Positions 2,444-47,464 of a stretch of DNA of 64,000 nt are shown one piece after another. Position numbers and translations under genes: made by a program. Source of the stretch: Methanobrevibacter sp. TLL-48-HuF1. GTDB lineage: Archaea > Methanobacteriota > Methanobacteria > Methanobacteriales > Methanobacteriaceae. Numbering within the stretch: position 1 is the stretch's first letter; each line of letters opens with the position of its first letter. Below the pieces are notes generated by a model. That model had not been told where the DNA came from. It made no database searches and saw only the letters and a program-made list of their open reading frames with translations. The stretch lies in NCBI RefSeq assembly GCF_023617305.1, contig NZ_CP081485.1, forward strand, positions 1,788,501 through 1,852,500. Direction: 5' to 3'.

Positions 2444-3126
2444 ATACTTTCATTTGATTTTTTTTAGTATAATATCTTTTTGTAAAAGTCGGGAAATATT
2501 GTTCAATAATATTATTGTTCATTTTTTTTTTAAAACAAAACAAGCTTTTTTAGACGTTTTCAATTTTTAGTTGATAAAGTATAGAAATCTTCAAATAAAT
2601 AAAAAACTCATTATCCATTAGCTAATCCATAAAATAAGAATAAGTGGACGGGGCTACACAACCTATCATTTTTACAAAACCCCGTCCAACATAGAAAAGG
2701 TGGAGAAATTTCCTACACAATTATCCACCTAATCAATACAAAGCTTTTATAAAATATTTTTTTGAAGCAGTTCAGAATTTAACTTCAATTGTATATATTT
2801 TACTATTACTTAATATATTTTACCTTTTTATTTTCATAAAATCCTTTAATATGCAATACATTATAAAAAATCAGTAAATTATTCCAGGTGATTTTACATA
2901 ATTTAATATGATTGAAATAAATTAGATGTAATTAAAAAGCATTGTCTGTTGTTAGTATGTGTTGTCTTGGTTTGTTACTTAAATTATAGTATTTTCATCA
3001 CTTATTTTATTCTTATTTTAATATTTTATCTTTAAATCAATTTTTCGGTTAGTTATTAGAAAGAATTATATGATGATTTGGTTTAAATTATTAAATAAGT
3101 GTTACTTAAGTTGTGAGGCAGATAAT
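2444..3126. other. Intergenic region, divergent promoters plus a GC-rich hairpin element
   Basis: This 683-nt gap separates the divergent gpsA and ATPase genes. It contains a perfect 14-bp palindrome (CAATAATATTATTG, 2504-2517) just upstream of the probable gpsA promoter, and the GC-rich double hairpin at about 2640-2730 described separately. The remainder is AT-rich, and I see no convincing coding sequence in it. The short open frames at 2082-2282 and 2298-2570 are antisense to gpsA or run out of it. Confidence 0.6.
2640..2730 (-). ncRNA. Candidate structured small RNA with two GC-rich hairpins
   Basis: Two strong stems stand out from AT-rich surroundings. One pairs 2645-2653 with 2680-2688 (9 bp, TGGACGGGG/CCCCGTCCA). 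The other pairs 2698-2704 with 2724-2730 (7 bp, AGGTGGA/TCCACCT). Read on the minus strand, both loops carry UUGUGUAG just before the 3' side of the stem, so the two hairpins resemble each other. A minus-strand TATA-like TTTTATAAAA (2745-2754) would place the transcription start near the outer edge of the first hairpin. After the second hairpin the minus strand reads CUUAUUCUUAUUUU, a possible U-rich terminator. Strand choice rests on these two signals. GC-rich islands in AT-rich archaea often mark structured RNAs. I do not recognise the family; it could instead be a long gpsA leader. Confidence 0.4.
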
Positions 3127-4541
3127 ATGGGGAATATAAAAAATTTAAAAATAGAAAATTTCGGATCTATAAAACAGGCAAATATTGATATATCTCCATT
3201 AACTATTTTTATTGGCCCTAATAGTTCTGGTAAATCATTCATTGCTCATATTATCCAATGTTTCAACAGTCGTTTTGATAATTATGGGGATATGTTTAAT
3301 GAGGCTTTAAATTCAACGAAATATTTTGATAAAAGAGCTGAGGAATTATTTTCTAAATTTTCTAATCAAATAAGCAAATATATTAAGGATAATCCTTCTT
3401 TATCTTCAGATCCTCTCAAAATTCCTGTTTCAGAATTAAAATATTTAATTGAAAATGGGATTTTAAAATATTTTTCAGAATTATTCGGGGATAAAATTAA
3501 AAAGCAATTTGATGTTAAAAACTTAGATGAGTTAATTCAATTTAAAAAAATTACTTTAAAATTGAAATAAATGATGATATATTAGTTAAAGAAGCTAATA
3601 AAAACTTTAAAATGGAAAGTTCACTTATGGAAGTTCCATCTTCTGAAGAACCGATGATTAATGATGAAATTGTTTTAAAATTTGATAAAAATGATGAAAA
3701 TATATTAATTAATATGAATTCCTTTTTAATTAATAAACGCTTTGATGATGATGATGAAATGATTCATTATATGATTTATGCTCTTTTTGGAGTGTCAATA
3801 TTTGAAGATACACTTTTGAAAAATTCTTATTATATTCCAGCTGAACGATCAATTTTTACTAAAGATAAAACAATAATTTCTAAAAGGATTCAAAATAAGA
3901 TTGCTTTTTCAAAAAATCAGGAAGATTTTGCACTATCTTTATTTAATTTAAAAGGGGATGAAAAAGGCCAATTTTATGATTTGGCGTGTAGTTTTGAAAA
4001 AGAACTTTCTGGAGGTCATATTGTTTTAGAAAAAGATGGATTATTTAATAATGTAAAATATTTAGATTTTAATGAAAACATTAAAGTATCTCCGAAATTA
4101 TTGTCTACTTCTTTAAATGAAATGGCTGCAATTATACTTTATTTGAAATATATATTAAAAGAAGATGATTTATTGATTATTGAAGAACCTGAAGCTCATT
4201 TGCATCCAAAAAATCAACGTATTTTAGTTAAGTATTTGGCTGAGGCTATTAATAAGGGGTTAAATGTATTGATTACAACTCATAGTGATTATGTTATCCA
4301 TCAATTTAATAATCTTATCCGTTTGGGAAATTTAACATCTGATGAAATATTTAAATTAAATTATGATGAAAATAATGTTTTGAATTTTAAGGATGTTAGT
4401 ATATATCACTTTAAAGAACAGTCAAAATATTCATTTGTTCCAGAAAAAATTGAAGTTAATAATACGGGTTTTACAGAAGATAATTTCTCAAAAATCACAG
4501 AAGAATTATATGAAGAGTCTATAGATATAATTAATTTTTAA
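3127..4541 (+). pseudogene. AAA family ATPase (AAA_15/OLD-like), reading frame split by a -1 shift
   Basis: Two adjacent open frames (3127-3570 and, with its first ATG, 3612-4541) form one ABC-like AAA ATPase. The first carries KIENFGSIKQANIDISPLT and Walker A GPNSSGKS (residues 30-37). The second carries the signature-like region LLSTSLNEMAAIILY, Walker B LLIIEEPEAHLHP and the switch histidine ITTHSDYV. A -1 shift at 3555-3561 joins them into 471 residues, a normal length for the family, with no gap. The second frame is open from 3561, well before its first ATG. No TOPRIM domain is present. The start at 3127 is preferred over the upstream ATG at 3070 because homology begins there. The partner gene starts 12 nt downstream. 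This may be a disabled gene, a sequencing error in a homopolymer, or recoding. A role in phage defence is inferred from the architecture. Confidence 0.75.
3555..3561 (+). promoter_or_regulatory. Possible -1 ribosomal frameshift heptamer T TTA AAA
   Basis: In the zero frame the codons read act-tta-aaa-ttg-aaa-taa, so the heptamer T TTA AAA has the X XXY YYZ phase of a classic -1 slippery site. The zero-frame stop lies two sense codons later. Slipping here continues the protein directly into the downstream ATPase frame. A 7-A run at 3544-3550 is an alternative position for a simple one-base deletion. I see no strong stem-loop just downstream. Confidence 0.35.
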
Positions 4542-4553
4542 AAAGGTGATTTT

Positions 4554-5036
4554 TTGGGATTTAAACAACATTTTATAAATGAATATGGTGAAAATTACAT
4601 ATTGGATAAATGTAGGGAAAAAGGATGCTTTTTTAAAGATATTAAAAAAGAAGATTATGTAATTCTTGATGGTGATGGTCTAGAAAAAAGAAATGGGAGA
4701 AGTTCTGTTGATTGTATTATTATTAAACTAAAAACTAATTTGGATAATAAGTATGATATAATTTTATGTGAATTGACTTCTGGTTCAAGGGATTTGAAAA
4801 AAGTCAGACAAAAATTTGAAGATAGTGGAAGTTTAGTTGTAAATGTCATGAAAAATATGGGGGAAGAAATAAATAATATTTCTTGTTTGCTTTTAGGTAA
4901 AATAAAAGATAATGGTCAAAGAATAACTTATAAAAATTTGTTGAATCCGGTTTTTATCAAAGGATTTAAAAGGAATGATATTTTTATTAGGAAAGAAAGT
5001 TGTGAATATAGTATAAATAATTTTAAATTTAATTAA
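4554..5036 (+). CDS. PD-(D/E)xK-like partner protein of the AAA ATPase, unrecognised family
   Basis: This is a 160-residue soluble protein of no family I can name. It starts at TTG (4554), positioned by a good AAGGTGAT site 4-5 nt upstream, 12 nt after the ATPase stop, so the two are translated as a pair. Residues 51-75 resemble a PD-(D/E)xK nuclease core: SSVDCIIIK (Asp53), a turn, then YDIILCELTSG (Glu73), followed by a helix with LKKVRQKFEDSG. The usual lysine of E-x-K is threonine here (E-L-T), so catalysis is uncertain. The gene beside the second ATPase (41068-41808) has the same arrangement with an intact E-F-K. The C-terminal third is basic and contains RITYKNLLNPVF. Nuclease function is inference from motif spacing and context. 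Confidence 0.55.
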   Translation: MGFKQHFINEYGENYILDKCREKGCFFKDIKKEDYVILDGDGLEKRNGRSSVDCIIIKLKTNLDNKYDIILCELTSGSRDLKKVRQKFEDSGSLVVNVMKNMGEEINNISCLLLGKIKDNGQRITYKNLLNPVFIKGFKRNDIFIRKESCEYSINNFKFN

Positions 5037-34633: not shown

Positions 34634-34832
34634 GTTTATTATCTTTATTATTCATAATATTAATATAATGTGGTTGGATAAGGTTATTAAATATAAATTA
34701 ATTAAATTTAGTTTTTTAAAGGTTGTATATTGTGTTTTAAGCTATTCTGCTCTTTTATTTCCATTTAAAAAATTTATCAATGTGCATTATGTTTTTCAGC
34801 AATTTTTAAATTTTATTTCTTAATAACTCATT

Positions 34833-34965
34833 ATTATCTTTCTTTTTTCAGTTTCAATGCAATTTTTCTATTTTAAATCAATTTTAAGATTAGGCACTGA
34901 TTTTTAGATAGAATTTATAGTTTTGCATATTTTAAAGCTTAATTTTAGTAATTGCAGAATGAATG
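34833..34965 (+). repeat. Direct repeat, right copy, bracketing the GNAT pair
   Basis: This is the second copy of the 33511-33640 segment, with the centres about 1.3 kb apart. It differs by scattered substitutions and small indels. The unique DNA between the copies is essentially the 46-residue gene, the GNAT gene and their promoters. Confidence 0.7.
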
Positions 34966-34980
34966 TTTGGAAATACATTA

Positions 34981-34990
34981 TTATAAATAT
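34981..34990 (+). promoter_or_regulatory. TATA box giving a probable leaderless mRNA for the TarI-like gene
   Basis: TTATAAATAT is centred about 29 nt before the ATG at 35015. Transcription would start within a few bases of the start codon. No ribosome binding site is present, in keeping with leaderless translation. Confidence 0.5.
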
Positions 34991-35014
34991 AAAAAATAAC
35001 AAAATCTAACTTTA

Positions 35015-35710
35015 ATGATATGTGCTGCACTACTTGCTGGAGGTATAGGAACCCGTTTGGATGTTGGAATGCCTAAGCAATTTTATTTAATAGCTGATAA
35101 ACCAATTTTAATACATTCCTTGGAAGCTTTCTTAAAAGTTGAAGAAATGGATGAAATTATAGTATCTTCACCAAAAGAATGCATTAATAAAACTAAAGAT
35201 GTAATAAAAGAATATGAATTAACAGACCCCAGAATCACTGTTATAGAAGGTGGAAAAAGACGTAGTGATACAATTTTAAATTCCATTAACTACACTCTTG
35301 AAAATGATTATCCTAAAGATTCAATAATGGTTACTCATGATGCTGCAAGGATATTTGTAACTCCTCAGTTAATTAAAGACAGTGTCAGGTATGCAAAACA
35401 GTATGGAGCAGCCAGTGCAGTTATTCCAGCTACAGATGTAATATTTGAATCTAAAAAACAGGGAATATTAACTGATGTTCCGGACAGGCAGTATTTGCTG
35501 CAGTCTCAGACGCCACAGTCATTTAATATAAATCATTACCTTGAAATTTACAGTGATTTGTCCGATGAAGAAATTGACAAATTAGATGAAGCTATGATTT
35601 TGTTTCACATGAGAGGTCATGAAATTGGTTTATTTGAAGGGGATAGAACCAATTTTAAAGTTACAAGACCATCAGATATTAAAATAGCTAATGCGATGTT
35701 AAGGGGATAA
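35015..35710 (+). CDS. IspD/TarI family cytidylyltransferase (probable polyol-phosphate cytidylyltransferase)
   Basis: This 231-residue protein belongs to the IspD/TarI family, transferring CMP from CTP to a phosphorylated alcohol. The motifs are LLAGGIGTRLDVGMPKQF (residues 6-23), THDAARIFV (107-115) and SQTPQSF (164-170). Archaea make isoprenoids by the mevalonate route, whose genes occur at 58610-60816, so an IspD role is unlikely. CDP-ribitol or a similar CDP-polyol for surface glycan decoration fits the neighbours: a gpsA-like gene upstream, a surface-carbohydrate gene 3 nt downstream, and LicD. The start is probably leaderless. Its exact substrate (ribitol-5-phosphate, glycerol-3-phosphate or another) cannot be read from sequence. 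Confidence 0.82.
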   Translation: MICAALLAGGIGTRLDVGMPKQFYLIADKPILIHSLEAFLKVEEMDEIIVSSPKECINKTKDVIKEYELTDPRITVIEGGKRRSDTILNSINYTLENDYPKDSIMVTHDAARIFVTPQLIKDSVRYAKQYGAASAVIPATDVIFESKKQGILTDVPDRQYLLQSQTPQSFNINHYLEIYSDLSDEEIDKLDEAMILFHMRGHEIGLFEGDRTNFKVTRPSDIKIANAMLRG

Positions 35711-35713
35711 ATA

Positions 35714-37009
35714 ATGGCAGATATTGTAATCTTTTATGAACTTCCGGAAAGGGAATTAAATAATGCTAATCTTTTAAAAGCAGAATTTGAAAAAAGAGGA
35801 TATTCTGTTGATATATTGGGGTATTATAATTACAGGGAACTTATTTTTCCAAAAGAATATAAACCGAAACTACTGATTGGTCAGGCAGGTTATAACAATA
35901 ATGACATTGAAAGATATACTGTCAGATTCAAACCTAAAATAGATAAAATACTTAATTTAAGGTATGAACAGGTAATAGCTAAAAGAATTCTTGATTCCAA
36001 GGCCCATTATCCTAAGGAGTATATGAAAAAAGCCAGTCATGTTTGCTGGAGTGAAAAGATAAAACAGGATATGATGGCTGAAGGAATTGAGGAAAAGAAT
36101 TTACCTGTTACCGGAGATATTAAAACTGATTTTTCAAATCACAGATTTGATTCATTTTTCAAAACTAAGAATCAGCTGGCCAGTGAATTTAATTTGGATT
36201 CATCCAAGGAATGGATTTTATTTATTTCAAGTTTCACATTTAATGAAAAAGACTCTAAACGTTTAATGAGTATGAATCATAATCTGGATGACGGTAAATA
36301 TATGCAAAAATGGAATGTTGAATCAAAAGCTATTGTAATGGAATGGTTTGAGAAATTCCTAAAGACACATCCTGAAAAGGAATTTATTTACCGCCCTCAT
36401 CCTGTTGAATTTAATGTACTTGATGAAGATTCTACAATCAGTATTTTAGATGAAAAATATCCTAATTTCCATTATATCAATAAATATGCAATTCAGGAAT
36501 GGATCAGGCCATGCGATTACTTAAACACTGTTATAAGTACTTCTATTATTGATGTTTACTTGCTGGAAAAACAGTGTAATATTTTAAGGCCCGTTGAGCT
36601 GAATCCTGATTTTGATAATCCATTGCTTGTTGGAGCTAAAACAATCAGCACTTACGAGGAATTTGAAAAGTTAAACACCCTTAAAAACACTGAAGAATTC
36701 CCGGTTTCTCGTGAAATGATTGATCAGTATTATGATTTTGGAGATAAGCTGGCTTATGAGCGAATTTGTGATTATGCAGAAAAAATGATTAATGATGATT
36801 CGTTTAAGCAGGATTTCTATCCGAATCCGTCAAGATTCCACAGATTAAAGTTCATTATTAAAAGATCTCTTGATGTTCCGAAATTAATTCCTGCAGTTAT
36901 CAAATCAGCTATTAAAAACAAATCATCAACATCCAAAACTAAAGATAACAGGTCAATTTATGAAAAAAATGCTAAGAAAATAAGAGAAATTATTAATCAG
37001 TCCTCATAG
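35714..37009 (+). CDS. Surface carbohydrate biosynthesis protein (CDP-glycerol glycerophosphotransferase-like)
   Basis: This 431-residue protein looks like the surface-polysaccharide biosynthesis family with a GT-B-like fold. Its N-terminal half begins IVIFYELPERELNNANLL, and the central region has ILFISSFTFNEKDSKRL. Near residue 225 is EFIYRPHPVEFN, where R-P-H-P is also found in CDP-glycerol glycerophosphotransferases, followed by DYLNTVISTSIIDVYLLEK. It starts 3 nt after the TarI-like gene, so the two are translationally linked and the cytidylyltransferase product is a plausible donor. The basic C-terminus (PAVIKSAIKNKSSTSKTKD) could touch the membrane. The 3' end overlaps the opposite-strand licD by 13 nt. 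The acceptor and donor are unknown. Confidence 0.7.
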   Translation: MADIVIFYELPERELNNANLLKAEFEKRGYSVDILGYYNYRELIFPKEYKPKLLIGQAGYNNNDIERYTVRFKPKIDKILNLRYEQVIAKRILDSKAHYPKEYMKKASHVCWSEKIKQDMMAEGIEEKNLPVTGDIKTDFSNHRFDSFFKTKNQLASEFNLDSSKEWILFISSFTFNEKDSKRLMSMNHNLDDGKYMQKWNVESKAIVMEWFEKFLKTHPEKEFIYRPHPVEFNVLDEDSTISILDEKYPNFHYINKYAIQEWIRPCDYLNTVISTSIIDVYLLEKQCNILRPVELNPDFDNPLLVGAKTISTYEEFEKLNTLKNTEEFPVSREMIDQYYDFGDKLAYERICDYAEKMINDDSFKQDFYPNPSRFHRLKFIIKRSLDVPKLIPAVIKSAIKNKSSTSKTKDNRSIYEKNAKKIREIINQSS

Positions 37010-37830
37010 GGGCCAAAATCTATTTTTTGAGTTATATGATTATATCTTTCAGATTCTGGAGGTAACTTCATATAATCTCCATAAATTTGTGTAAGAATGC
37101 TGTCAAGATTATTTGGACAGTGAACTTCAACATCTTCAAACATTATTGTTTTTCCAGGTTTGAAATCACTTATTTTATAAATTTGCGGATGGTGAAGAGC
37201 TGAAATATCACAAACATATTTGCAGTCTTTATCATTATATTTATCCAATAATTTATGAGTTTTATCAAATAAGGATTCTCTTGAAATATTAAATAGTTTT
37301 AAAAAGCCATGTCCTGCATTAGCTAATGTCTGAACTAAAATAGGATATCCTTTAAATTTTATAACACTCATTGCAAGTAATCTGTCCAAAACACGGCAAC
37401 GTTTTACATGGATGAATCTTTTTAATTTGTTGTCCGGAACTTTGTCCAATACAAATATGTCAATATCAATTCCCAAATCAAAATCTACCTGATCAACCCA
37501 CCATTCTTCAAAAATAGTATCTTTTAACATGATTTTTGAAAATAAAAAGAAATAATCTTTTGTTTTACTTGTTAAAAAGTTATATTTATTATTTGATTTG
37601 GATAATGCTACTTTTTTAAACTTTTCATAGTCTTTTCTAAACATAATAATGTCTATATCATCATCCCAGGGAATAAAACCCCCATGCCTAACAGCACCTA
37701 ATGCACTACCTCCGTAAATAAAATACTCAATGTTGTTCTCTTCACAAATAGCTATAAAATCCTTTAGAATCATAAGCTCTAACTTTTGCAGTTTGTGAAT
37801 AGTTTCGCTAGAATAATCAGTATAGTGCAT
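36997..37830 (-). CDS. LicD family phosphotransferase, second copy
   Basis: This 277-residue LicD protein is a paralogue of that at 603-1466. The motif block is at residues 39-62: YGGSALGAVRHGGF, then IPWDDDIDII. The tail PPESERYNH and KIDFGPYED also match. An additional common feature is DFDLGIDIDIFVLDKVPDN. A minus-strand TATA box (plus 37874-37890) and an AAAGGT site support the start. The gene converges on the surface-carbohydrate gene with a 13-nt overlap. Two LicD copies at either end of the glycan region suggest two separate acceptors or two donors. LicD proteins in bacteria attach phosphocholine; here glycerophosphate or polyol phosphate is more consistent with the neighbours, which is inference. 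Confidence 0.85.
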   Translation of the reverse strand: MHYTDYSSETIHKLQKLELMILKDFIAICEENNIEYFIYGGSALGAVRHGGFIPWDDDIDIIMFRKDYEKFKKVALSKSNNKYNFLTSKTKDYFFLFSKIMLKDTIFEEWWVDQVDFDLGIDIDIFVLDKVPDNKLKRFIHVKRCRVLDRLLAMSVIKFKGYPILVQTLANAGHGFLKLFNISRESLFDKTHKLLDKYNDKDCKYVCDISALHHPQIYKISDFKPGKTIMFEDVEVHCPNNLDSILTQIYGDYMKLPPESERYNHITQKIDFGPYED

Positions 37831-37873
37831 TTTTTTACCTTTAAAAAACTTGTTAAATATATTTTATTTAAAT

Positions 37874-37890
37874 TTACATATATAACTTTT
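37874..37890 (-). promoter_or_regulatory. TATA box of the second licD gene
   Basis: On the minus strand this reads AAAAGTTATATATGTAA, identical to 33816-33832 on the plus strand. It predicts a transcription start about 20-25 nt before the licD ATG. Confidence 0.55.
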
Positions 37891-37944
37891 CTAATGGAAA
37901 TTTTTATTAATTATGTTTAGTATACTTTTAGTTATATAGAGGAT

Positions 37945-38997
37945 ATGAAAAATATGACTTTTAAAATTAGTGTAATAATGCCTGTTTATAATGCTGAAGA
38001 TGAATTAAACACAGCTATTGATTCAATAATAAATCAGTCTTTCGGTTTTGAAAATATTGAGTTAATAATAGTTGATGACTGTTCAACAGATAATTCCAGA
38101 AACATTATAACTGATTATGCTAATGAATATGAGAATATTATTCCTGTTTTTTTAGATGAAAACTCCGGACTTCCAGGTAAGCCACGCAGTTTAGGTATTA
38201 AATATGCCAGTGCTGATTATATCTCCTTTTTGGATTCTGATGATGAATATCTTAAAGATGGTCTTAAAAATCTTTATGATACTATTTTAAGTGAAGACTC
38301 TGATTTTGTAATCGGATCACATGTCATTAATCTTGATGGGGACAAAGTTAAAGTTAAATTTCTGCAAAGTGATGAAAAATTAGTGAACTTAAATCCTTTG
38401 GAATCTCAGGAAATCTTTGACAGCTTAAGTTTAAATTATTTTGTGGCTCCTTGGGGTAAAATGTTTAAAAAAGAATTGATTTTAGATAATAATATAACAT
38501 TTCCGGAAGATACTTTATGTGAAGACACTTATTTTTATTTTAAAGCACTGATAAATTCAAACAAGATTTCTGTTTTACCTAATACTCAGGTTTACATGTA
38601 TAATACTTTTGAACATAAAAAAACAGCTATACATGGTCATGATGTTAAAAAATTCAACAGATTCTTAAAAGGTATGTATAAAGTTAATAATCTTTTAGAA
38701 CCAGTTAAATTATCTCAATATGTAACAATAGGGGAGAATATTGGGAGTTTACTTTTAATCTTTTCTAATTTGGATAAAAAACATAAAATGTCTGCAGTTA
38801 AAGAAATTTACAAGTTTGAAAAACATTTAAATTGTAAAATTGATATTCATAGAAAAGAAATAGCTGTTTTAAATAATAAAGTTTTAAATAAACAGTTTAA
38901 ACAGGCTATTTTTATTTCTAAGCTTTATACTTCCCTTTATAATAATCAGACAATAAAAAATCTTTATAGAAAGTTTAATATTAGGAAAAATAACTGA
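37945..38997 (+). CDS. Family 2 glycosyltransferase
   Basis: This 350-residue GT-A glycosyltransferase has a catalytic domain over residues 1 to about 230. ISVIMPVYNAEDELNTAIDS is followed by IELIIVDDCSTDNSRNII (the nucleotide-binding aspartates) and ADYISFLDSDDEYL (the DxD-type metal motif). EDTYFYFKALIN follows near residue 190 and provides the usual catalytic acidic residue. The C-terminal 120 residues are helical and basic without membrane segments. The enzyme adds a nucleotide-activated sugar to a surface glycan; donor and acceptor are unknown. It is transcribed divergently from licD, with a 114-nt shared promoter region, and is followed 24 nt later by a small basic protein gene. Confidence 0.88.
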   Translation: MKNMTFKISVIMPVYNAEDELNTAIDSIINQSFGFENIELIIVDDCSTDNSRNIITDYANEYENIIPVFLDENSGLPGKPRSLGIKYASADYISFLDSDDEYLKDGLKNLYDTILSEDSDFVIGSHVINLDGDKVKVKFLQSDEKLVNLNPLESQEIFDSLSLNYFVAPWGKMFKKELILDNNITFPEDTLCEDTYFYFKALINSNKISVLPNTQVYMYNTFEHKKTAIHGHDVKKFNRFLKGMYKVNNLLEPVKLSQYVTIGENIGSLLLIFSNLDKKHKMSAVKEIYKFEKHLNCKIDIHRKEIAVLNNKVLNKQFKQAIFISKLYTSLYNNQTIKNLYRKFNIRKNN

Positions 38998-39021
38998 GTT
39001 TTTTGTTTATTGGTGTTGGTA

Positions 39022-39471
39022 ATGGGTAAAAAAACCAAAAAGAAGTTTTGGACTATGCCAAAAACTAGAAAGTTCAAATCTTTTAAAAAAAGGCAAGATA
39101 ATGAATATTATTTAACTGAAGTTCAGCTTAATAAAGAAATTAAAGAATTTAGAGAAATATTCAATAATTTATCTTATCCATTATCTGTTGGCGAATATGA
39201 TGATATGAATTCCCGTAGACTGAAAATCAAATTTTTATTTTCCAAACAGGAGAAAAAAGTCTGGAATAAATCCAATAATCGACGCCGCATTTATCTGGAA
39301 CAGTTATCTTTTTTTAAACATGTTTATGTTAAATGGAAACATATAACTTATCCGATTTATCTGGAAAGACACTACGGGGTTCCTCACCATACTACATTTT
39401 TTGTCCCGTGGTTTTTGAAAAAGAAAGATAAAAAGAAATTTATTTCTGTTGTAGCTAATGGTTTAGTTTAA
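39022..39471 (+). CDS. Unrecognised basic, aromatic-rich protein (149 residues)
   Basis: I do not recognise this protein. It begins GKKTKKKFWTMPKTRKFKSF, which is strongly basic. A helical segment follows (TEVQLNKEIKEFREIFNNL), and then an aromatic-rich C-terminus with HVYVKWKHITYPIYLERHYG, VPHHTTFFVPWFLKKK and a hydrophobic end. The start is taken at the ATG at 39022 rather than the upstream TTG in the same frame. It lies just downstream of the glycosyltransferase and may be in the same transcript. The basic N-terminus would suit nucleic acid or membrane-surface binding, but there is no motif to support a function. Confidence 0.6.
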   Translation: MGKKTKKKFWTMPKTRKFKSFKKRQDNEYYLTEVQLNKEIKEFREIFNNLSYPLSVGEYDDMNSRRLKIKFLFSKQEKKVWNKSNNRRRIYLEQLSFFKHVYVKWKHITYPIYLERHYGVPHHTTFFVPWFLKKKDKKKFISVVANGLV

Positions 39472-39782
39472 GATAATTGGACTATTTATGTAATTTAAAG
39501 TTTTTACAACATTTATAGGTTAACACAAATTTAGTTATTTTTGGTGTAATTTGAAGTGGCACTGATTTAGTTTTATGGTGTTTATTTAAAATATCTATTC
39601 GATTTTATAAAATGAATATTTTATCAAATTCTTTTTAAAGTTGCTTTAACTTCGTAAAATTGCTTTTAATATAAAAATACACTTACATATATTGGATTTT
39701 TAAGTTTTAAGATTTTAAATAAGTTTATATATACCTTAGTTTATACTATTTAATAAAGAAATCAATCAATGGAGACAATATT
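39472..39782. other. Intergenic region with promoter of the ATPase/nuclease cassette
   Basis: This 311-nt AT-rich gap has no coding sequence. The last 60 nt contain the TATA box at 39724-39733 and a GGAGAC ribosome binding site 7 nt before the ATG at 39783. Confidence 0.5.
39724..39733 (+). promoter_or_regulatory. TATA box of the ATPase cassette
   Basis: TTTATATATA lies about 55 nt before the ATPase start codon and predicts a transcript beginning near 39755 with a leader of roughly 28 nt. Confidence 0.5.
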
Positions 39783-41066
39783 ATGGCTGCTGAAATGTTA
39801 CTTGAAATTGAAAATTTGGGGCTGATTAATAAAGCAAATTTAGAAATTGGAAAGATAAATGTTATTGTAGGTAAAAATAGCACAGGTAAATCTACTTCAA
39901 GTAAGTTTCTATTTTCACTTCTAACAGCAGCATCTAGTGAAGGAACTCAATTGGCAAATATGGATATTCATTCAAAACTTTTAAATTTTGTTCTATATTG
40001 GGGGACTAAAGGATCACAGGAAATGGATGATAAATTTAAACAAATTAGAAATTCTTTGATGCGTCATTCTGTTTCTTCAGAGCTATTTGATGATATTTAT
40101 AGTAATATTGCACTTACCTTAGAAAATTATGATTTTAAAGATAAAGAGTTGTGTATTAATGATTTAAATGATTTATTTAGAATAATTAAACTGAATAAGG
40201 ATGAATATTCTAGGTATATTACAGTTTTCAATGCTCTTATTGAATCAGAGTATGGTAGTTCATTAAATAGATTTAGTAATGCTCATATTAAGTTTCATGG
40301 AAATTATAATGGTGTTGAATTTAATCAAGATATTAAAATTGGGGTTGAAAAAAGGAAAAGTAACATCAGTAAAGATTTTTTGAATTATTTTAATTTTCAA
40401 AATGTTATTTATCTTGATTCTCCTTCAATTTTAGAAAATAATCCTCGCAGTTCTCAATATCATTTGCGAGTACTTGAGAGGAAACTTAAAAAAATTAAAA
40501 ATCCTGATGAAATTTATAGTGATGAATTTTTTAAAGATTTAAATGATTTTAAAAGAAGAATTGATGAGTTAATTGGGGGAAATTTTGAATATGTTCATTC
40601 AGAAGATGTATTTATATTTAAAAAAGATGATGAAACTTTTTCCATGGAAAATACTGCTTCTGGACTAAAACAATTAGCAACTATTCAACTATTGCTTGAT
40701 AATAATGAATTAACAAAAAATAGTTTTTTAATTTTAGATGAACCTGAAATTAATTTACATCCTGGCTTTCAGGTAGAATTTGCAGAAATCTTAGTTTTAG
40801 CTGCTAGGGATTTGAATATTACATTATATATTAATACTCACAGTCCATTTTTTGCAGAAGCAATAGAAGCATATTCAAGATATTATAATTTAATTGATGA
40901 TACCAATTTTTACTTAACAGAAAAAGTAGATGGTATTGATAAATATAATTATAATTTACTTGATAATGATGAAATAATTGAGGTTTATGATAATTTAGGA
41001 AATCCATTTGACATTATTCATAAAATTAAAGTTCAGGCAGATTTAAAAGATGATTTGAGGGATTAA
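39783..41066 (+). CDS. AAA family ATPase (AAA_21/OLD-like), first gene of a putative defence cassette
   Basis: This 427-residue ABC-like ATPase has an N-terminal strand LLEIENLGLINKANLEIGK, Walker A GKNSTGKS (residues 30-37) and a long helical insertion (about 50-205). The signature-like block is MENTASGLKQLATIQLL (288-304), Walker B is FLILDEPEINLHP (315-327) and the switch histidine is TLYINTHSPFFAEAI (H353). No TOPRIM nuclease domain follows, unlike full OLD or Gabija GajA proteins. The next gene, a PD-(D/E)xK-like protein, starts 1 nt after the stop, so the nuclease is likely supplied in trans. It is analogous to the pair at 3127-5036. A role in defence against phages or plasmids is inferred from architecture and location. 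Confidence 0.82.
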   Translation: MAAEMLLEIENLGLINKANLEIGKINVIVGKNSTGKSTSSKFLFSLLTAASSEGTQLANMDIHSKLLNFVLYWGTKGSQEMDDKFKQIRNSLMRHSVSSELFDDIYSNIALTLENYDFKDKELCINDLNDLFRIIKLNKDEYSRYITVFNALIESEYGSSLNRFSNAHIKFHGNYNGVEFNQDIKIGVEKRKSNISKDFLNYFNFQNVIYLDSPSILENNPRSSQYHLRVLERKLKKIKNPDEIYSDEFFKDLNDFKRRIDELIGGNFEYVHSEDVFIFKKDDETFSMENTASGLKQLATIQLLLDNNELTKNSFLILDEPEINLHPGFQVEFAEILVLAARDLNITLYINTHSPFFAEAIEAYSRYYNLIDDTNFYLTEKVDGIDKYNYNLLDNDEIIEVYDNLGNPFDIIHKIKVQADLKDDLRD

Positions 41067-41067
41067 C

Positions 41068-41808
41068 ATGGCTTTTGACAATAGTGATTTTGTTAATCTA
41101 TTAAATTTTTATAAAGAGAATGATAATTTTCATGATAATGCTAGGAAATCTTTTAATAAATTTAGTGAAGTATCTAAATCAGACAATGATGCAGGAGCAT
41201 TTAAAAATCCATTAATTATTGATGATAATTGTATTTTTGATTTAGATAATATGTGTTGGAATAGTCATTTGAAGAATAATGGCTCTGTTAAAAGCAATCG
41301 CCCATTATCTGTAGATGCTTTGCATTTCAAAAATGGTAGGCTTTATTTAATTGAATTTAAAGGAACTTTTAATTCTACTTTGAATTTAGAAGAAATCATG
41401 GATAAATGTATTGAAAAAGTGGATGATAGTGATTTGGCTGGTGCTCTTGAGAGTATTAAAAATAGGTATGATGATGAGATATTATGTAATTTGAAAATCA
41501 AACCTTCTGATTCATTGTTTTTAACATTACCTCAAATTTACAAATATTATTGTGAAAAAAAGGATATAAAATATAATAAAGAAGAATTCCTTTCATGGTT
41601 GTTAAATGTTCCAAAAAGATTATATGTTGTATTTTTGAATGATATTCATGATAGTAAAAGAAATGAAAGTAAAAATTATAAATATTTGAGAATGGATAAA
41701 AAACTAAAGAAAAGATATGCTCCATTTAAAAAACTTGCAAATATGGAAAATTCAATTGTTACTCAAGATGAGTTTAGAGAGGGATTTATGAGAGAGTTTT
41801 TTAATTAA
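41068..41808 (+). CDS. PD-(D/E)xK-like nuclease-domain protein, partner of the AAA ATPase
   Basis: This 246-residue protein has a recognisable PD-(D/E)xK arrangement. PLSVDALHFKNGRLYLIEFK (residues 79-98) gives Asp83 and E96-F-K98, followed by the helix LEEIMDKCIEKV that usually closes the core. An upstream acidic helix and DNDAGAFKNPLIIDDNCIFDLD may supply further core elements. The C-terminal part is basic (KLKKRYAPFKKLANMEN). It begins 1 nt after the ATPase stop, so translation is coupled. I cannot name a family; nuclease activity is a prediction from the motif. The partner of the first ATPase (4554-5036) shows the same SVD and E-x-(K/T) layout in a smaller protein. Confidence 0.65.
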   Translation: MAFDNSDFVNLLNFYKENDNFHDNARKSFNKFSEVSKSDNDAGAFKNPLIIDDNCIFDLDNMCWNSHLKNNGSVKSNRPLSVDALHFKNGRLYLIEFKGTFNSTLNLEEIMDKCIEKVDDSDLAGALESIKNRYDDEILCNLKIKPSDSLFLTLPQIYKYYCEKKDIKYNKEEFLSWLLNVPKRLYVVFLNDIHDSKRNESKNYKYLRMDKKLKKRYAPFKKLANMENSIVTQDEFREGFMREFFN

Positions 41809-41838
41809 TTTGTATATTTTTTGATAATGGGTTTAATT

Positions 41839-42036
41839 ATGAATTTTAAATTAAAAAATTACTTTTTACATAATGTTTTAACTCCTCAGATGTATCTAGA
41901 TATTTATCTTAATAATAATCATCCTGAGCATCAAAATCTTAAAGAAGATTTGGATATCTTAAAAGAAGAAGATCTTTTAAAATATTATAAAAAGCATGAA
42001 ACACAAATTAATTTTTTAAACAAAAAAAATTCCTGA
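41839..42036 (+). CDS. Unrecognised small protein (65 residues) in the ATPase cassette
   Basis: This short gene starts MNFKLKNYFLHNVLTPQMYL and continues with an acidic-basic helical stretch (LKEDLDILKEEDLLKYYKKH). The ATG at 41839 is chosen as the most internal good start; ATG 41827 and TTG 41821 are alternatives in the same frame. It lies 30 nt after the nuclease-like gene and its stop is 4 nt before the next start, which supports a four-gene operon. The predicted long helix suits an adaptor or regulatory role, but nothing in the sequence shows one. Confidence 0.5.
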   Translation: MNFKLKNYFLHNVLTPQMYLDIYLNNNHPEHQNLKEDLDILKEEDLLKYYKKHETQINFLNKKNS

Positions 42037-42040
42037 TGTT

Positions 42041-42826
42041 ATGGTATATTCAAGGATATTGTTATTAGGTGAATTAATTGCTGATTCAATATTTGAAGAT
42101 AGACTTAATGCATTATTAAATAATAAACCTTATGATTTAAAAGAATTTAATGATATTTGTGATGATGAATTTTTAATTGATGTGAAGAAATCAAATATTA
42201 AATTTTCAGATTCTATAATTATTAACAATAATAAATATGGATTATGTTTGCCAATTAATGCATTTAATTCATCATATTGGATAACTCAAGAATTAAATAA
42301 GTTAAACTTAAATAAAGTAGATTTAAAAATTAGAGTAGATCCTTTTTTAAGAAATTTTGATAATATGTTCTATTCAAGCACTGTTTTTTCAAAACCATTA
42401 AATTGGAATGATATTATTAATTTAAGAAATGAAGATAAAGGTTCGTTTCAAAATTATCAAACCAACGAATTAACCGAATATTTATGGAAACCTAGAAAAG
42501 AAAATGAAGTTGTTTTCACATGTGAGGAATTGCCCTCAAAAGAAAATATACATTTAAGGGGGAGTAGATATTTTCATGCAATTTTTGAAAAAGATACGGG
42601 CAAATTTAAACATTGTGATGGTTCGATTATCATTTATGATAAGAAAAAATTTGACAAAAGGTCTAAGTTATCCATTAATAATAAAGTTAATGATATTGGT
42701 AAAGAAATTAAATTATTTAGAGTTGATGGTGTTATTCCAAAAGAACAATTCATGCCATTAGTAACTAGTTATTTTTATTGGAATTATGATTTATTATGTT
42801 ATTTTTGTAAAAATTTGGTAAAGTAG
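42041..42826 (+). CDS. Unrecognised protein (261 residues), last gene of the ATPase cassette
   Basis: I do not recognise this protein. It begins MVYSRILLLGELIADSIFED, contains a central region with TEYLWKPRKENEVVFTCEEL and HLRGSRYFHAIFEKDTG, and then alternating hydrophobic and charged strands (FKHCDGSIIIYDKKKF) before an aromatic end with SYFYWNYDLLCYF. It is soluble with mixed alpha and beta character. No catalytic motif is obvious, although HLRGSRYFH and the following acidic strand are candidates for a conserved core. It is 4 nt from the 65-residue gene and closes the run that begins with the AAA ATPase, so it is plausibly a component of the same system. Membership is inferred from spacing. 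Confidence 0.6.
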   Translation: MVYSRILLLGELIADSIFEDRLNALLNNKPYDLKEFNDICDDEFLIDVKKSNIKFSDSIIINNNKYGLCLPINAFNSSYWITQELNKLNLNKVDLKIRVDPFLRNFDNMFYSSTVFSKPLNWNDIINLRNEDKGSFQNYQTNELTEYLWKPRKENEVVFTCEELPSKENIHLRGSRYFHAIFEKDTGKFKHCDGSIIIYDKKKFDKRSKLSINNKVNDIGKEIKLFRVDGVIPKEQFMPLVTSYFYWNYDLLCYFCKNLVK

Positions 42827-43285
42827 TTTATAGAAATAATGTATGTTGATTATTGATTCTATCTATAAAAATTATGTTCAAGAAATTCAAGTTTTTTTAA
42901 AATAAAACATCTATATTTATCTTTTAAATAGAAAATTAAGAACAAATGCCTATAAAATAAGCAAAATAAGGAAAAATATCAAATCTAATTTATTGATAAA
43001 GCCATTTCAATAGATATTTTTTATCTGAAACTTTTCTGTGAGGGTATCTTATGGATTTAATGGCCTCTTTTTAAAAAATATTCAAAATAACCATAGAGAA
43101 AATAAAAAAGAGTTTTTTAATTTTTTATCTAAGTTAAAAATTTATTTTCAGTTAACACAAATACATTCCAACATTTTATTAATAAATATAAATAATAGTA
43201 GTTAACTTGAATTTAACCAATAAGTTATATAGTATTTTAATCAAAATTATACATAATATAAATTTAAAAATTATTTGTTGATATC
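42827..43285. other. Intergenic region between the ATPase cassette and the purine genes
   Basis: This 459-nt AT-rich region shows no gene. A TATA-like AAGTTATATAGTATTT (43222-43237) lies about 55 nt before purC and is the likely operon promoter. A 7-codon frame at 43051-43074 after GAGGGT is too short to call. Confidence 0.5.
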
Positions 43286-44017
43286 ATGGATAAAAAAGAG
43301 TTAATTAATAATGGTAAAGTAAAAAGTGTATATACTACTGATGATGAAGATGCAGTTATCATTGAGTTTAGAGATGATATGACTGCAGGTGACGGTGCAA
43401 GAAAAGAAGTCATGAATAAAAAAGGTTCTTATAATGCACTTATTTCCACTAAACTTTTTAAAGTATTGGAAGAAAACGGTATTAAAACACAATTTATTGA
43501 TTTGCCTGAAACTAATGTTATGGTAGCTAAAAAATTAGACATGATTCCTATTGAGGTTATTGTTAGAAATATAGCTACAGGTAGTTTAATTCGTAAATAT
43601 CCAATAGCTGACGGTACTAAATTAAACCCGCCTATTGTTCAAATGGATTTTAAAGCAGATGAATTCCATGATCCTATGCTTAATGATTCTATTATTAAAG
43701 CTTTAGGATTAGCTACTCAGGAAGAAATCGATGAATTAACTCAAAAAGCATTAAAAATTAATGAAATTTTATCCAAATTCCTTTTGGAAGCCGGAATTAT
43801 CTTAGTTGATTTTAAAGTTGAATTTGGTAAAGATAAAAATGGTGAAATTATTTTAGGTGATGAAATTAGCCCGGACGGATGCAGATTATGGGATAGTGAA
43901 ACCTTAGATATGTTAGATAAGGAATTGTTCAGAAAAGGTAAAGATAATGAAGTTATGGATGCTTATGTAGAAGTTTATAATAGAATTATCCCTGATGATG
44001 AGAAAATAGAATTATAA
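43286..44017 (+). CDS. purC: Phosphoribosylaminoimidazolesuccinocarboxamide synthase (SAICAR synthetase)
   Basis: PurC joins CAIR and aspartate using ATP in de novo purine synthesis. The 243-residue protein shows GKVKSVYTTDDEDAVIIEF at its N-terminus (nucleotide site), the SAICAR synthetase signature IPIEVIVRNIATGS near residue 90, and LGDEISPDGCRLWD near 190-205. The length is normal. It is the first of five closely spaced genes (12 nt to purS), all on the plus strand. The TATA box upstream at 43222-43237 probably drives the set, and no riboswitch-like structure is seen. The identification is firm. Confidence 0.96.
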   Translation: MDKKELINNGKVKSVYTTDDEDAVIIEFRDDMTAGDGARKEVMNKKGSYNALISTKLFKVLEENGIKTQFIDLPETNVMVAKKLDMIPIEVIVRNIATGSLIRKYPIADGTKLNPPIVQMDFKADEFHDPMLNDSIIKALGLATQEEIDELTQKALKINEILSKFLLEAGIILVDFKVEFGKDKNGEIILGDEISPDGCRLWDSETLDMLDKELFRKGKDNEVMDAYVEVYNRIIPDDEKIEL

Positions 44018-44029
44018 GGAGTTTTTGAA

Positions 44030-44296
44030 ATGATTTTTGATATTGAAGTTAAAGTATCTCTTAAGGAAGGTATGTTAAACCCAGAAGCTACAACTATTGA
44101 AAGATCTCTTGCTTTACTTGGTTATGATGTTAAAAATGCTAAAACTGTAGACATCATTAAATTCCAAATGGAAGGGGAAGACAGGGAATCTATAAGGGAA
44201 GATGTTGTAGATATGTGTGAAAGATTACTCTGTAATCCTGTAATTCATAATTATAAAATTACTGTTATTCCGCAAAACTCTGCTTGCGGGGCTTAA
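44030..44296 (+). CDS. purS: Phosphoribosylformylglycinamidine synthase subunit PurS
   Basis: PurS is the small subunit that bridges PurL and PurQ in the FGAM synthetase complex of archaea and Gram-positive bacteria. The 88-residue protein has the family's N-terminus (VKVSLKEGMLNPEATTIERS) and GYDVKNAKTVDIIKF, and ends with CERLLCNPVIHNYKI, all typical. An AAGGAG site precedes the ATG. It sits between purC and purQ with 12-nt spacers. The large subunit purL is not in this window. Confidence 0.95.
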   Translation: MIFDIEVKVSLKEGMLNPEATTIERSLALLGYDVKNAKTVDIIKFQMEGEDRESIREDVVDMCERLLCNPVIHNYKITVIPQNSACGA

Positions 44297-44308
44297 GGAG
44301 TTTTTATA

Positions 44309-44953
44309 ATGAAAATTGGAGTAATTAGATTTCCGGGAACCAACTGTGACAGGGATGTAGCTAGAGCTATTGAACTTGCAGGATTAACTCCTGAATATAT
44401 CTGGTGGAATCAGGAGGATTTAACAGATTTTGACGGTATTGTAATTCCTGGAGGATTTTCTTATGGTGATTATTTAAGAGCAGGAGCTATGGCTTCTATT
44501 ACTCCTGTTATTGATGGTATTAAATCATTAGTTAAGGAAGAAAAACCTGTTTTAGGAATATGTAACGGTGCTCAGATTCTTGGTGAAATAGGTCTTGTTC
44601 CAGGTGTTTTCATAACTAATGAAAATCCTAAATTTAACTGTGAATGGGTTGATTTAAAAGTTGGAACTACCAGAACACCTTTTACCAAATCATTTAAAAA
44701 AGGTCAGACTTTACAAATTCCAATAGCTCATGCAGAAGGAAGGTTTTACACAGAGGATATTGATTTATTAAAAGATCAAGATCAGATAGTTTTACAATTT
44801 AAAGACAGAAATCCTAATGGTTCTATGGAAGCCATTACCAGTGTTTGTGATGAGTCAGGTCTTGTTTGTGCAATGATGCCTCATCCTGAACGTGCCTGTG
44901 AAGAAATATTAGGTTCTAGCGATGGATTAAACTTTTTTAAAGGATTTTTATAA
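44309..44953 (+). CDS. purQ: Phosphoribosylformylglycinamidine synthase, glutaminase subunit PurQ
   Basis: PurQ releases ammonia from glutamine for PurL. The 214-residue class I amidotransferase has the oxyanion loop [15 protein letters not shown], the nucleophile Cys85 in [10 protein letters not shown], and the catalytic His/Glu in MMPHPERAC near residue 195. An AAGGAG site lies before the ATG. The N-terminus ([15 protein letters not shown]) is typical of the family. It is followed 9 nt later by cobA, so the purine genes run directly into the cobalamin gene. Confidence 0.96.
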
Positions 44954-44962
44954 GTGATTTAG

Positions 44963-45673
44963 ATGGTAGTTTATTTAGTGGGTGCAGGTCCGGGAGATGC
45001 TGATTTAATAACTCTTAAAGCTATAAAAGCTCTAAATAAAGCAGATGTTGTTTTATATGATTATTTGGCTAATGATGAAATTTTAGAGCATGCTCCGGAG
45101 GATGCCGAAAAAATATATGTTGGTAAAAAAGCTGGGGAACATTATAAAACACAAGATCAGATTAATGAATTGATTGTCAAACAGGCTAAAGAAAATGACA
45201 ATGTGGTTCGTCTTAAAGGTGGCGATCCTTTTGTTTTTGGTCGTGGAGGAGAAGAAATATTAGCTTTAATGGAAAATGATATCAAATTTGAAGTAATCCC
45301 TGGTGTAACATCAGCTATTGGAGCACCAACATCACTTGGGCTGCCTGTAACTCATAGAGCTATAGCTACCTCTGTAACATTAGTAACTGGTCATGAAGAC
45401 CCTACTAAAAAAGAAAGTCAGGTTAAGTGGGATTATACTGCTGATACATTAGTTATATTAATGGGTATAGGTAATATTAAAGAGAACACAACTGAAATCA
45501 TGAAATACCGTTCTGGAGATACACCAGTCTGTGTTATAGAAAGCGGTACTCTTCCAGATGAAAATGTGATTTTTGGAACTCTTGAAAATATAGCTGATAA
45601 AAAAATTAACACTCCAGCTATTTTGATTATTGGAGATGTAGTAAGTCTTTATAAAGACATTTATAATTATTGA
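44963..45673 (+). CDS. cobA: Uroporphyrinogen-III C-methyltransferase
   Basis: This SUMT-type enzyme methylates uroporphyrinogen III at C2 and C7 with SAM to make precorrin-2, the branch point to cobalamin, factor F430 and sirohaem. The 236-residue protein shows [18 protein letters not shown] at the N-terminus, DYLANDEIL near residue 32, and the central [16 protein letters not shown] loop. [22 protein letters not shown] follows. The length fits a stand-alone enzyme without a HemD or siroheme domain. It sits between purQ and glmS with 9-nt spacers, an association more of position than of pathway. Confidence 0.94.
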
Positions 45674-45682
45674 GGTGTAACA

Positions 45683-47464
45683 ATGTGTGGAATTGTAGGT
45701 TGCATATTAAAAAACAATAAAAATGCAGCTCCTGTTCTTTTAGATTGCATATCTAAATTAGAATATAGAGGTTATGATTCAATAGGTATCGCTACAGTTA
45801 GTGATGGTATTAACATTAAAAAAGATAAAGGAAAAATTAAAGAGGTTGATTCTAAATTAGATTTAGCTGACATGCCTGGTCATTATGGTATTGCACATGT
45901 TCGTTGGGCTACTCATGGTGATCCGAATAAAATTAATGCACATCCGCATACTGATGAAACTGAGTCAGTGGCTGTAGTTCACAATGGTATTATTGAAAAT
46001 TATTTGGATATTAAATCTCAACTTGAAGAAGAAGGTCATGTATTTAAATCTGATACCGATACGGAAGTTATTCCTCATTTAATACAAAAATACATGGATA
46101 AGGGATTTGATTTGGAAGATGCCTTACGTGAAACAATTGGAATAATTCATGGGGCTTATGCAATAGCAGCTATCAGTAAAAATGAACCGGGTAAGATAAT
46201 AGCTACCCGTAAAGACAGTCCTTTAATTGTTGGTATTGGTAAAGACGGATATTATCTGGCTTCTGATTCTCCAGCTATCTTGGAATATGCAAGGGATATA
46301 ATTTATCCTGAAAAAGGTGAACTGGTTATTATTGATGAAAATGAAGTAATAGTTAAGGATGAATTTGACAATGTTGTAGAAAAAGAAATTGAAACTATTG
46401 ACTGGACTCCAGAAATGGCTGAAAAGGAAGGTTATGACTATTTCATGATTAAAGAAATCAATGAACAGGCTACAGCAGTTAGAAACACTTTAACTGAAAA
46501 AAGTACTATTCAGGAAATTATTGATGATTTAGGGGATATTTCAAGAATCTGTTTTGTAGCATGCGGTACTTCTTTTCATGCTTCAATAACTGGTAAATAT
46601 CTTTTAGAATCTATAGCTGGCATTCCAACAGATGTTATTTTAGCTTCTGAATTTAAATATTCTGCAAATACATTAAATGAAGATACTTTAGTTATTTTCA
46701 TATCTCAATCTGGTGAAACAGCAGACAGTCTTAAAGCACTGGATTTGGCTAACAAAACATCTAAAACTTTAGGTATAGTTAATGTAGCAGGTTCAGCTAT
46801 TACAAGACGTGCCGATTATGTGATACAAACTCAGGCAGGTCCTGAAATTGGAGTGGCTGCAACCAAGACTTATGTAAGTCAGTTAACTGCCATTTATTTA
46901 TTTGCAGCATTGATAGCTGATGATGAAAAATTACTTGAAGATGTTTATAAAGTTCCTGATTTCATTGAAGAGTTATTAAAAGAAGTAGATTCAATTAAAG
47001 CAATGTCTAAAAAATATAAGTTTGCCCGTGACTTTTTCTTTATTGGAAGAGGTTATTCTTATCCGATAGCTTTGGAAGGAGCCCTAAAACTTAAGGAAAT
47101 TACTTATATTCATGGTGAAGGTTATGCAGCTGGTGAACTTAAACACGGACCGCTTGCACTTATTGATGAAGGAATTCCAGTTGTTGTAATATTGCCTCCT
47201 GGAGAAAACCATAGAAAAACAATGAGTAATTTAGAAGAGGTTAAAGCCCGTGGTGCAGATATTTTAGCTATCGGTTCTAAAGATGATGAAAGATTAAAAT
47301 TAAAATCTGATGATTTATTTGCTATAAATGATGATGTTAATGAAATTATCGCTCCTTTAGTGTATATTGTACCGTTGCAGTTACTTGCGTATTATGTGGC
47401 TGTTGAAAAAGGTTTGGATCCGGATAAACCTAAAAACTTAGCTAAATGTGTAACTGTGGAGTAA
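45683..47464 (+). CDS. glmS: Glutamine--fructose-6-phosphate aminotransferase (isomerizing)
   Basis: GlmS makes glucosamine-6-phosphate from fructose-6-phosphate and glutamine, the entry to UDP-GlcNAc and hence to the pse pathway and cell-wall amino sugars. The 593-residue enzyme begins MCGIVGCI with the glutaminase Cys (residue 2 before Met removal), followed by [19 protein letters not shown] and [10 protein letters not shown]. Two SIS domains follow ([11 protein letters not shown], then SQSGETADS; later [19 protein letters not shown]), and it ends with NLAKCVTVE, the conserved tail. A GAGGTG site precedes the ATG. It is the last long gene of the purine-cobA run; the following short gene starts 5 nt after its stop. 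Confidence 0.96.

Follow-up and report, generated by a model that had tools for sequence, protein, structure and literature searches.

A conserved two-gene module of an OLD-like ATPase and a predicted PD-(D/E)xK nuclease, probably serving virus defence, in Methanobrevibacter sp. TLL-48-HuF1

WonAB is a two-gene anti-phage system in which an OLD-type ABC ATPase works with a distinct PD-(D/E)xK protein; both are needed (PMC12137116). Its outcome is translation shut-off and abortive infection, with tRNA or rRNA as the suspected target (PMC12137116). The WonAB nuclease was found to be toxic only in the presence of its ATPase, and inactivation of the ATPase abolished the toxicity (PMC12137116). An operon related to WonAB has been described as 'OLD-ABC ATPase + novel REase' (PMC12137116), and a later survey reported further OLD-ABC ATPases paired with PD-(D/E)xK nucleases (PMC12839542). 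Additionally, the system PD-T4-4, whose source is Vassallo et al. 2022 (PMC9519451), was placed by a review under both the AAA_15-type ATPases and the PD-(D/E)xK nucleases (PMC10952713). In gut- and rumen-type methanogens, only a small number of defence systems other than CRISPR have been tested.

The gut-type methanogen Methanobrevibacter sp. TLL-48-HuF1 carries four consecutive open reading frames, all on the + strand, within the 64,000-nucleotide stretch of DNA analysed here as a whole (the window). A sequence-only reading had proposed that these frames form one undescribed four-gene defence system, composed of an ATPase, a separate nuclease and two proteins that could be regulators or sensors. 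We correct this four-gene system to a two-gene module, A-B, followed by a broken passenger gene, D. The features, in window positions, are:

39472..43220, strand not applicable, inserted segment of 3,749 bp, recognised from the empty site in sister genome G041 (contig L164)
39724..39733, + strand, TATA box TTTATATATA of the module, its position kept upstream of the ATPase elsewhere
39783..41066, + strand, gene A, OLD-like ABC ATPase of 427 aa without TOPRIM (Pfam, PADLOC, motifs)
41068..41808, + strand, gene B, predicted PD-(D/E)xK nuclease effector of 246 aa (motif, strand order, synteny)
41839..42826, + strand, gene D, one broken gene of ~330 aa (intact homologues, profile A2 in two frames)
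41839-42036, + strand, ORF 3, 65 aa from its ATG, N-terminal part of gene D
42041-42826, + strand, ORF 4, 261 aa, C-terminal part of gene D

The coordinates and strand of the four frames, their spacers of 1, 30 and 4 nt and the single TATA box before the set are exactly as first reported. The genome with the closest relationship among those compared is G041, in which the product of the neighbouring purine gene is 98% identical. Window positions 34756-39471 correspond to L164 7091-11816 at 92.3%, and positions 43221-46998 to L164 11814-15592 at 94.2%. The two flanks are contiguous in G041, and therefore 39472-43220 is a precise insertion, gained or lost as a unit relative to that genome. Its GC content is 23.1%, compared with 29.4% across the window. 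The earlier remark that no recombinase was seen stands for the insertion itself, yet the segment was precisely gained or lost all the same. No convincing large repeats were found at the insertion boundaries. A 12-bp direct repeat, GTTAACACAAAT, lies close to both ends (39519-39530 and 43151-43162) and has no further copy within the window; it is a possible trace of recombination.

Gene A encodes a Walker A motif (GKNSTGKS, K36), an ABC signature-like motif (TASGLKQ), a Walker B motif (LILDEPE, D319/E320) and an H-loop at H353 (alignment A4), as well as a conserved C-terminal tail (Y402..L405..P408). The protein matches AAA_15 (2.9e-12) and AAA_21 (5.2e-12) in Pfam, and in PADLOC the ATPase models of many defence systems, of which HEC-02A is the best (1.7e-31) and PD-T4-4_A the next (4.2e-25). 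Its profile also matches the structures of PtuA, AriA and OLD. Pfam revealed no TOPRIM match in gene A and the protein ends ~70 aa past the H-loop, in agreement with the original description of an OLD-like ATPase without TOPRIM.

Gene B begins 1 nt after the stop of gene A, and its product contains the motif S81-V82-D83 ... E96-F97-K98. Across 23 diverged B homologues (alignment A1), P79, D83, E96 and K98 are invariant, including all three residues on which the earlier nuclease proposal was based (Asp83, Glu96 and Lys98). In the AlphaFold2 model (mean pLDDT 85), D83 opens one strand and E96-F-K98 lies in the next, a predicted strand order compatible with the PD-(D/E)xK expectation. No curated profile of Pfam, NCBIfam or PADLOC matches gene B significantly, and its modelled fold has no PDB or viral-library match at E <= 0.001. 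In the Foldseek comparison that had been suggested as a check, about half of the top 50 matches, all weak and with low TM-scores, are PD-(D/E)xK nucleases or polymerases that include such a nuclease. The pairing of the ATPase with a separate PD-(D/E)xK-type protein is upheld by motif and synteny, while the profile match anticipated for 41068-41808 did not appear. Taken together, the invariant residues, the strand order of the model and the synteny make the nuclease identity of gene B strong in our view, with the fold as a compatible prediction.

The A-B pair resembles the WonAB kind in several respects: it is a two-gene operon in which an OLD-type ABC ATPase without TOPRIM precedes a small, separate protein of predicted PD-(D/E)xK type, and the two share prophage carriage, patchy distribution and a C-terminal extension of the ATPase. 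Published counts of the WonAB kind refer to bacterial genomes, whereas the pair described here is found in methanogenic archaea. The archaeal B proteins are also larger (~245-320 aa, against ~170-220 aa for the bacterial partners) and contain, following the E-x-K strand, a helical insert that is missing from the bacterial partners. In profile-profile comparison the archaeal and bacterial B families match with a probability of 98.2% and an E-value of 3.7e-14, and by this measure they are homologous. A search for WonAB in viral contigs by means of the published primer found no match, and scanning the loci by the WonA residue numbering (K34/R182/E300/H333) produced no candidate. The best reading is that A-B would fit the WonAB or 'OLD-ABC + REase' kind, on layout and motifs. 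To call the system undescribed, as had been proposed, goes too far, since its kind is known from bacteria (PMC12137116) and the models PD-T4-4_A and HEC-02A match gene A.

Likeness to PD-T4-4 lies in that ATPase match. HEC-02 is alike both in its ATPase model and in its nuclease partners, which carry D...E-V-K/R, but true HEC-02 ATPases score ~1e-116 and 1e-125 where gene A scores 1.7e-31. As candidate identities for gene B, PD-T4-4_B was rejected because neither gene B nor 22 homologues matched the PADLOC PD-T4-4_B model at E <= 1, and HEC-02B because its models do not match gene B and one of the 23 homologues reaches 0.021. When archaeal B was compared by profile with two HEC-02B proteins, the result was insignificant. 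On a Polaromonas plasmid (L047:1425-3044), a HEC-02 pair stands immediately behind the pglX gene of a BREX-2 system. PARIS (AriAB), Gabija (GajAB) and the Septu/retron PtuAB pair share an OLD/Rad50-like ABC ATPase core with gene A and differ in their effectors. Those of PARIS and Gabija are TOPRIM domains (AriB and the GajA C-terminus), with the helicase GajB added in Gabija; no TOPRIM or helicase was found in any ORF of the set with Pfam, PADLOC or NCBIfam, and membership in either system is therefore not indicated. The PtuAB effector is an HNH protein (PtuB), in place of which gene B carries D...E-x-K, and the absence of an HNH match to gene B in the same three collections argues against membership there too. 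The layout is accordingly unlike Gabija, PARIS and retron systems, as the sequence-only reading had stated.

In the Methanobacteriaceae, gene A stands directly before gene B at every archaeal locus with a sufficiently long contig (30/30), and two further archaeal B loci lie at contig ends. With profile A1, B was detected in 45 of the 152 phylum genomes; its distribution is patchy within the genus and it is missing from the closest genome compared. The archaeal B family is therefore present in ~30% of the phylum genomes searched, yet automatic annotation misses it because no Pfam, NCBIfam or PADLOC profile matches. Several divergent A-B pairs occur in some genomes. For a search beyond the phylum, the ATPase alignment was scanned against a species-genome collection and 80 loci were kept, from other archaea, Firmicutes, Bacteroidota, Campylobacterota, Spirochaetes and others; the next gene could be scored in 72. 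The pattern D-x(8-24)-E-[FLYV]-K is present in 70 of these 72 partner ORFs downstream of A, mostly bacterial, compared with a background of 42 among 313 ORFs of the same loci. Together with the invariance in 23 homologues, this argues that the gene B motif is not due to chance. Partner genes elsewhere usually overlap A or lie within 20 nt of it, and the pairwise distances of A and B are correlated over 84 loci (r = 0.73; best of 2,000 permutations, 0.12). In L169 (genome G094) and L168 (genome G052), AAGTTTATATAT is retained at the same place before the ATPase in leaders that have otherwise diverged. Against G052, dN/dS is ~0.10 for gene A and likewise for gene B, with dS saturated in both comparisons, which points to purifying selection on both genes. 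A and B form a real, intact and conserved two-gene module.

Copies of the pair are found on plasmids and in predicted viral contigs, where B matches the bacterial profile. One archaeal copy (L171) has CRISPR/cas1-cas2 and a ResIII helicase near it, and another (L174) an FRG-domain gene and a provirus. HEPN-like genes, as judged by eye, were noticed near A-B in L168, L169 and L173. About 10 of 125 direct neighbours of bacterial copies match PADLOC at 1e-20, a raw count without a control set; these neighbours are mostly housekeeping genes, and for this reason we claim no defence-island enrichment for the bacterial copies.

The two remaining frames behave differently from the A-B pair. When 139 Methanobacteriaceae genomes were searched with ORF 4 (261 aa), three relatives were recovered, each within an open frame of 331-340 aa and intact at 327-332 aa; their N-terminal ~65 residues match ORF 3 and the remainder ORF 4. 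The profile of this family (A2) matches the window in separate pieces, each in its own frame (model positions 1-65 and 51-328), and the break lies in the A8 run at positions 42022-42029. ORFs 3 and 4 therefore belong to a single gene that is read in two frames and split by a frameshift; the suggested regulators or sensors are the halves of one broken passenger gene. Profile search found the gene D family in 4 of the 152 phylum genomes. Intact copies adjoin integrase-like genes in L037 and L039, and a third lies in a provirus-like region among terminase-type genes (L038:8913-9905). The L038 copy is near DUF4365- and DUF4145-domain genes, and similar provirus genes flank A-B in L174. Gene D was not beside A-B in the three genomes with intact copies, nor was it present in any of the other A-B loci read. 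Furthermore, the donor of DNA similarity changes just before the end of B, from G052 (39791-41775) to G028 (41782-42830). From this switch and the separate occurrence we infer that gene D is a separate passenger joined behind A-B, outside the module and now frameshifted. Its product is an orphan family: Pfam, PDB, phage, plasmid and viral-contig searches gave no relatives, and its structure model is poor (pLDDT 50).

The shared strand, short spacers, single conserved TATA box and location within one insertion would favour a four-gene defence system, but the frameshift and the occurrence of gene D apart from A-B refute that reading, with the donor switch as a further point against it, and it is almost certainly wrong. 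The sequence-only reading had itself named homologues of the last two genes occurring mostly alone as a refuting outcome. The gene-neighbourhood comparison that had been proposed for four-gene synteny likewise showed conservation of A-B only, with D homologues elsewhere. Whether the passenger is still functional here is a different matter. The break could be a sequencing error, as homopolymer runs are error-prone, or slippage on the A8 run could still yield one protein; neither half is interrupted by any other stop, and the family appears to be under purifying selection (dN/dS 0.15, window C-terminal part against G028). We judge this somewhat unlikely, as L037, the closest intact homologue, reads through the same place unsplit, and a conserved slippery site is for that reason not indicated.

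Our main reading, to which we assign a probability of roughly 0.8, is that A and B together defend against viruses and belong to the known two-gene kind 'OLD-ABC ATPase + PD-(D/E)xK nuclease', of which they would represent an archaeal branch with a nuclease larger than those of bacteria. It is based on the prophage and plasmid carriage, the patchiness, the insertion, the conserved pairing with its correlated divergence, the purifying selection, the complete ATPase motifs, the invariant nuclease triad, the neighbours of some archaeal copies and the WonAB layout. By analogy, the gene A product would dimerise and bind ATP, hold or stabilise B through its conserved C-terminal tail, act as the sensor of something arising in virus replication, and license B, the effector, to cut a nucleic acid; the outcome would probably be abortive infection. 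On this defence reading, gut- and rumen-type methanogens also have the ATPase-plus-nuclease design that was tested in bacteria as WonAB. A more specific version, in which the archaeal pair is a distinct system that senses methanogen viruses and uses an unusually large PD-(D/E)xK effector to shut the cell down, and the orphan passenger is possibly a second defence or counter-defence gene, is speculative and we hold it doubtful.

An overlapping two-gene layout, a B that is presumably toxic and the presence of copies on plasmids, in prophages and, here, within a discrete insertion would also suit a toxin-antitoxin or addiction pair, with B as toxic nuclease and A as antidote, kept for maintenance of the mobile element. 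This is improbable, since the WonAB nuclease without its ATPase is non-toxic and ATPase inactivation abolished toxicity, which speaks against simple sequestration (PMC12137116), and complete ATPase motifs like those of A are unusual for an antitoxin; moreover, addiction and antiviral roles may coexist. In repair, nucleases are the partners of Rad50/RecF-type ABC ATPases, and housekeeping genes surround many of the bacterial A-B copies; both points would suit a DNA-repair or genome-maintenance pair. Such a role is nevertheless very hard to reconcile with the patchy occurrence, an insertion of low GC whose site is empty in the sister, the plasmid and prophage carriage and the several divergent pairs found in some genomes.

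Further pairs were also observed. A second, diverged A-B pair without ORFs 3 and 4 lies in the same genome, ~8-10 kb to the left of where the window begins (L032:4160-6228); its A is 45% and its B ~41% identical to the window pair, with a transposase-like gene near and an ASCH-domain protein after it. Two different pairs stand on either side of a metK-like gene on one contig (L172:3706-5732 and L172:7252-9361). A subfamily whose ATPases are short (~260-320 aa) and lack the helical inserts, though the pairing with B persists, is common in the genus (L008-L013, L015, L016, L018-L024, L026 and L028). Within the window itself, a second OLD-like ATPase is split over two frames (3070-3570 and 3612-4541) and is followed at 4554-5036 by a 160-aa protein with SVD...CEL; the stretch 3070-5036 is probably what remains of a degraded ATPase-nuclease module from another subfamily.
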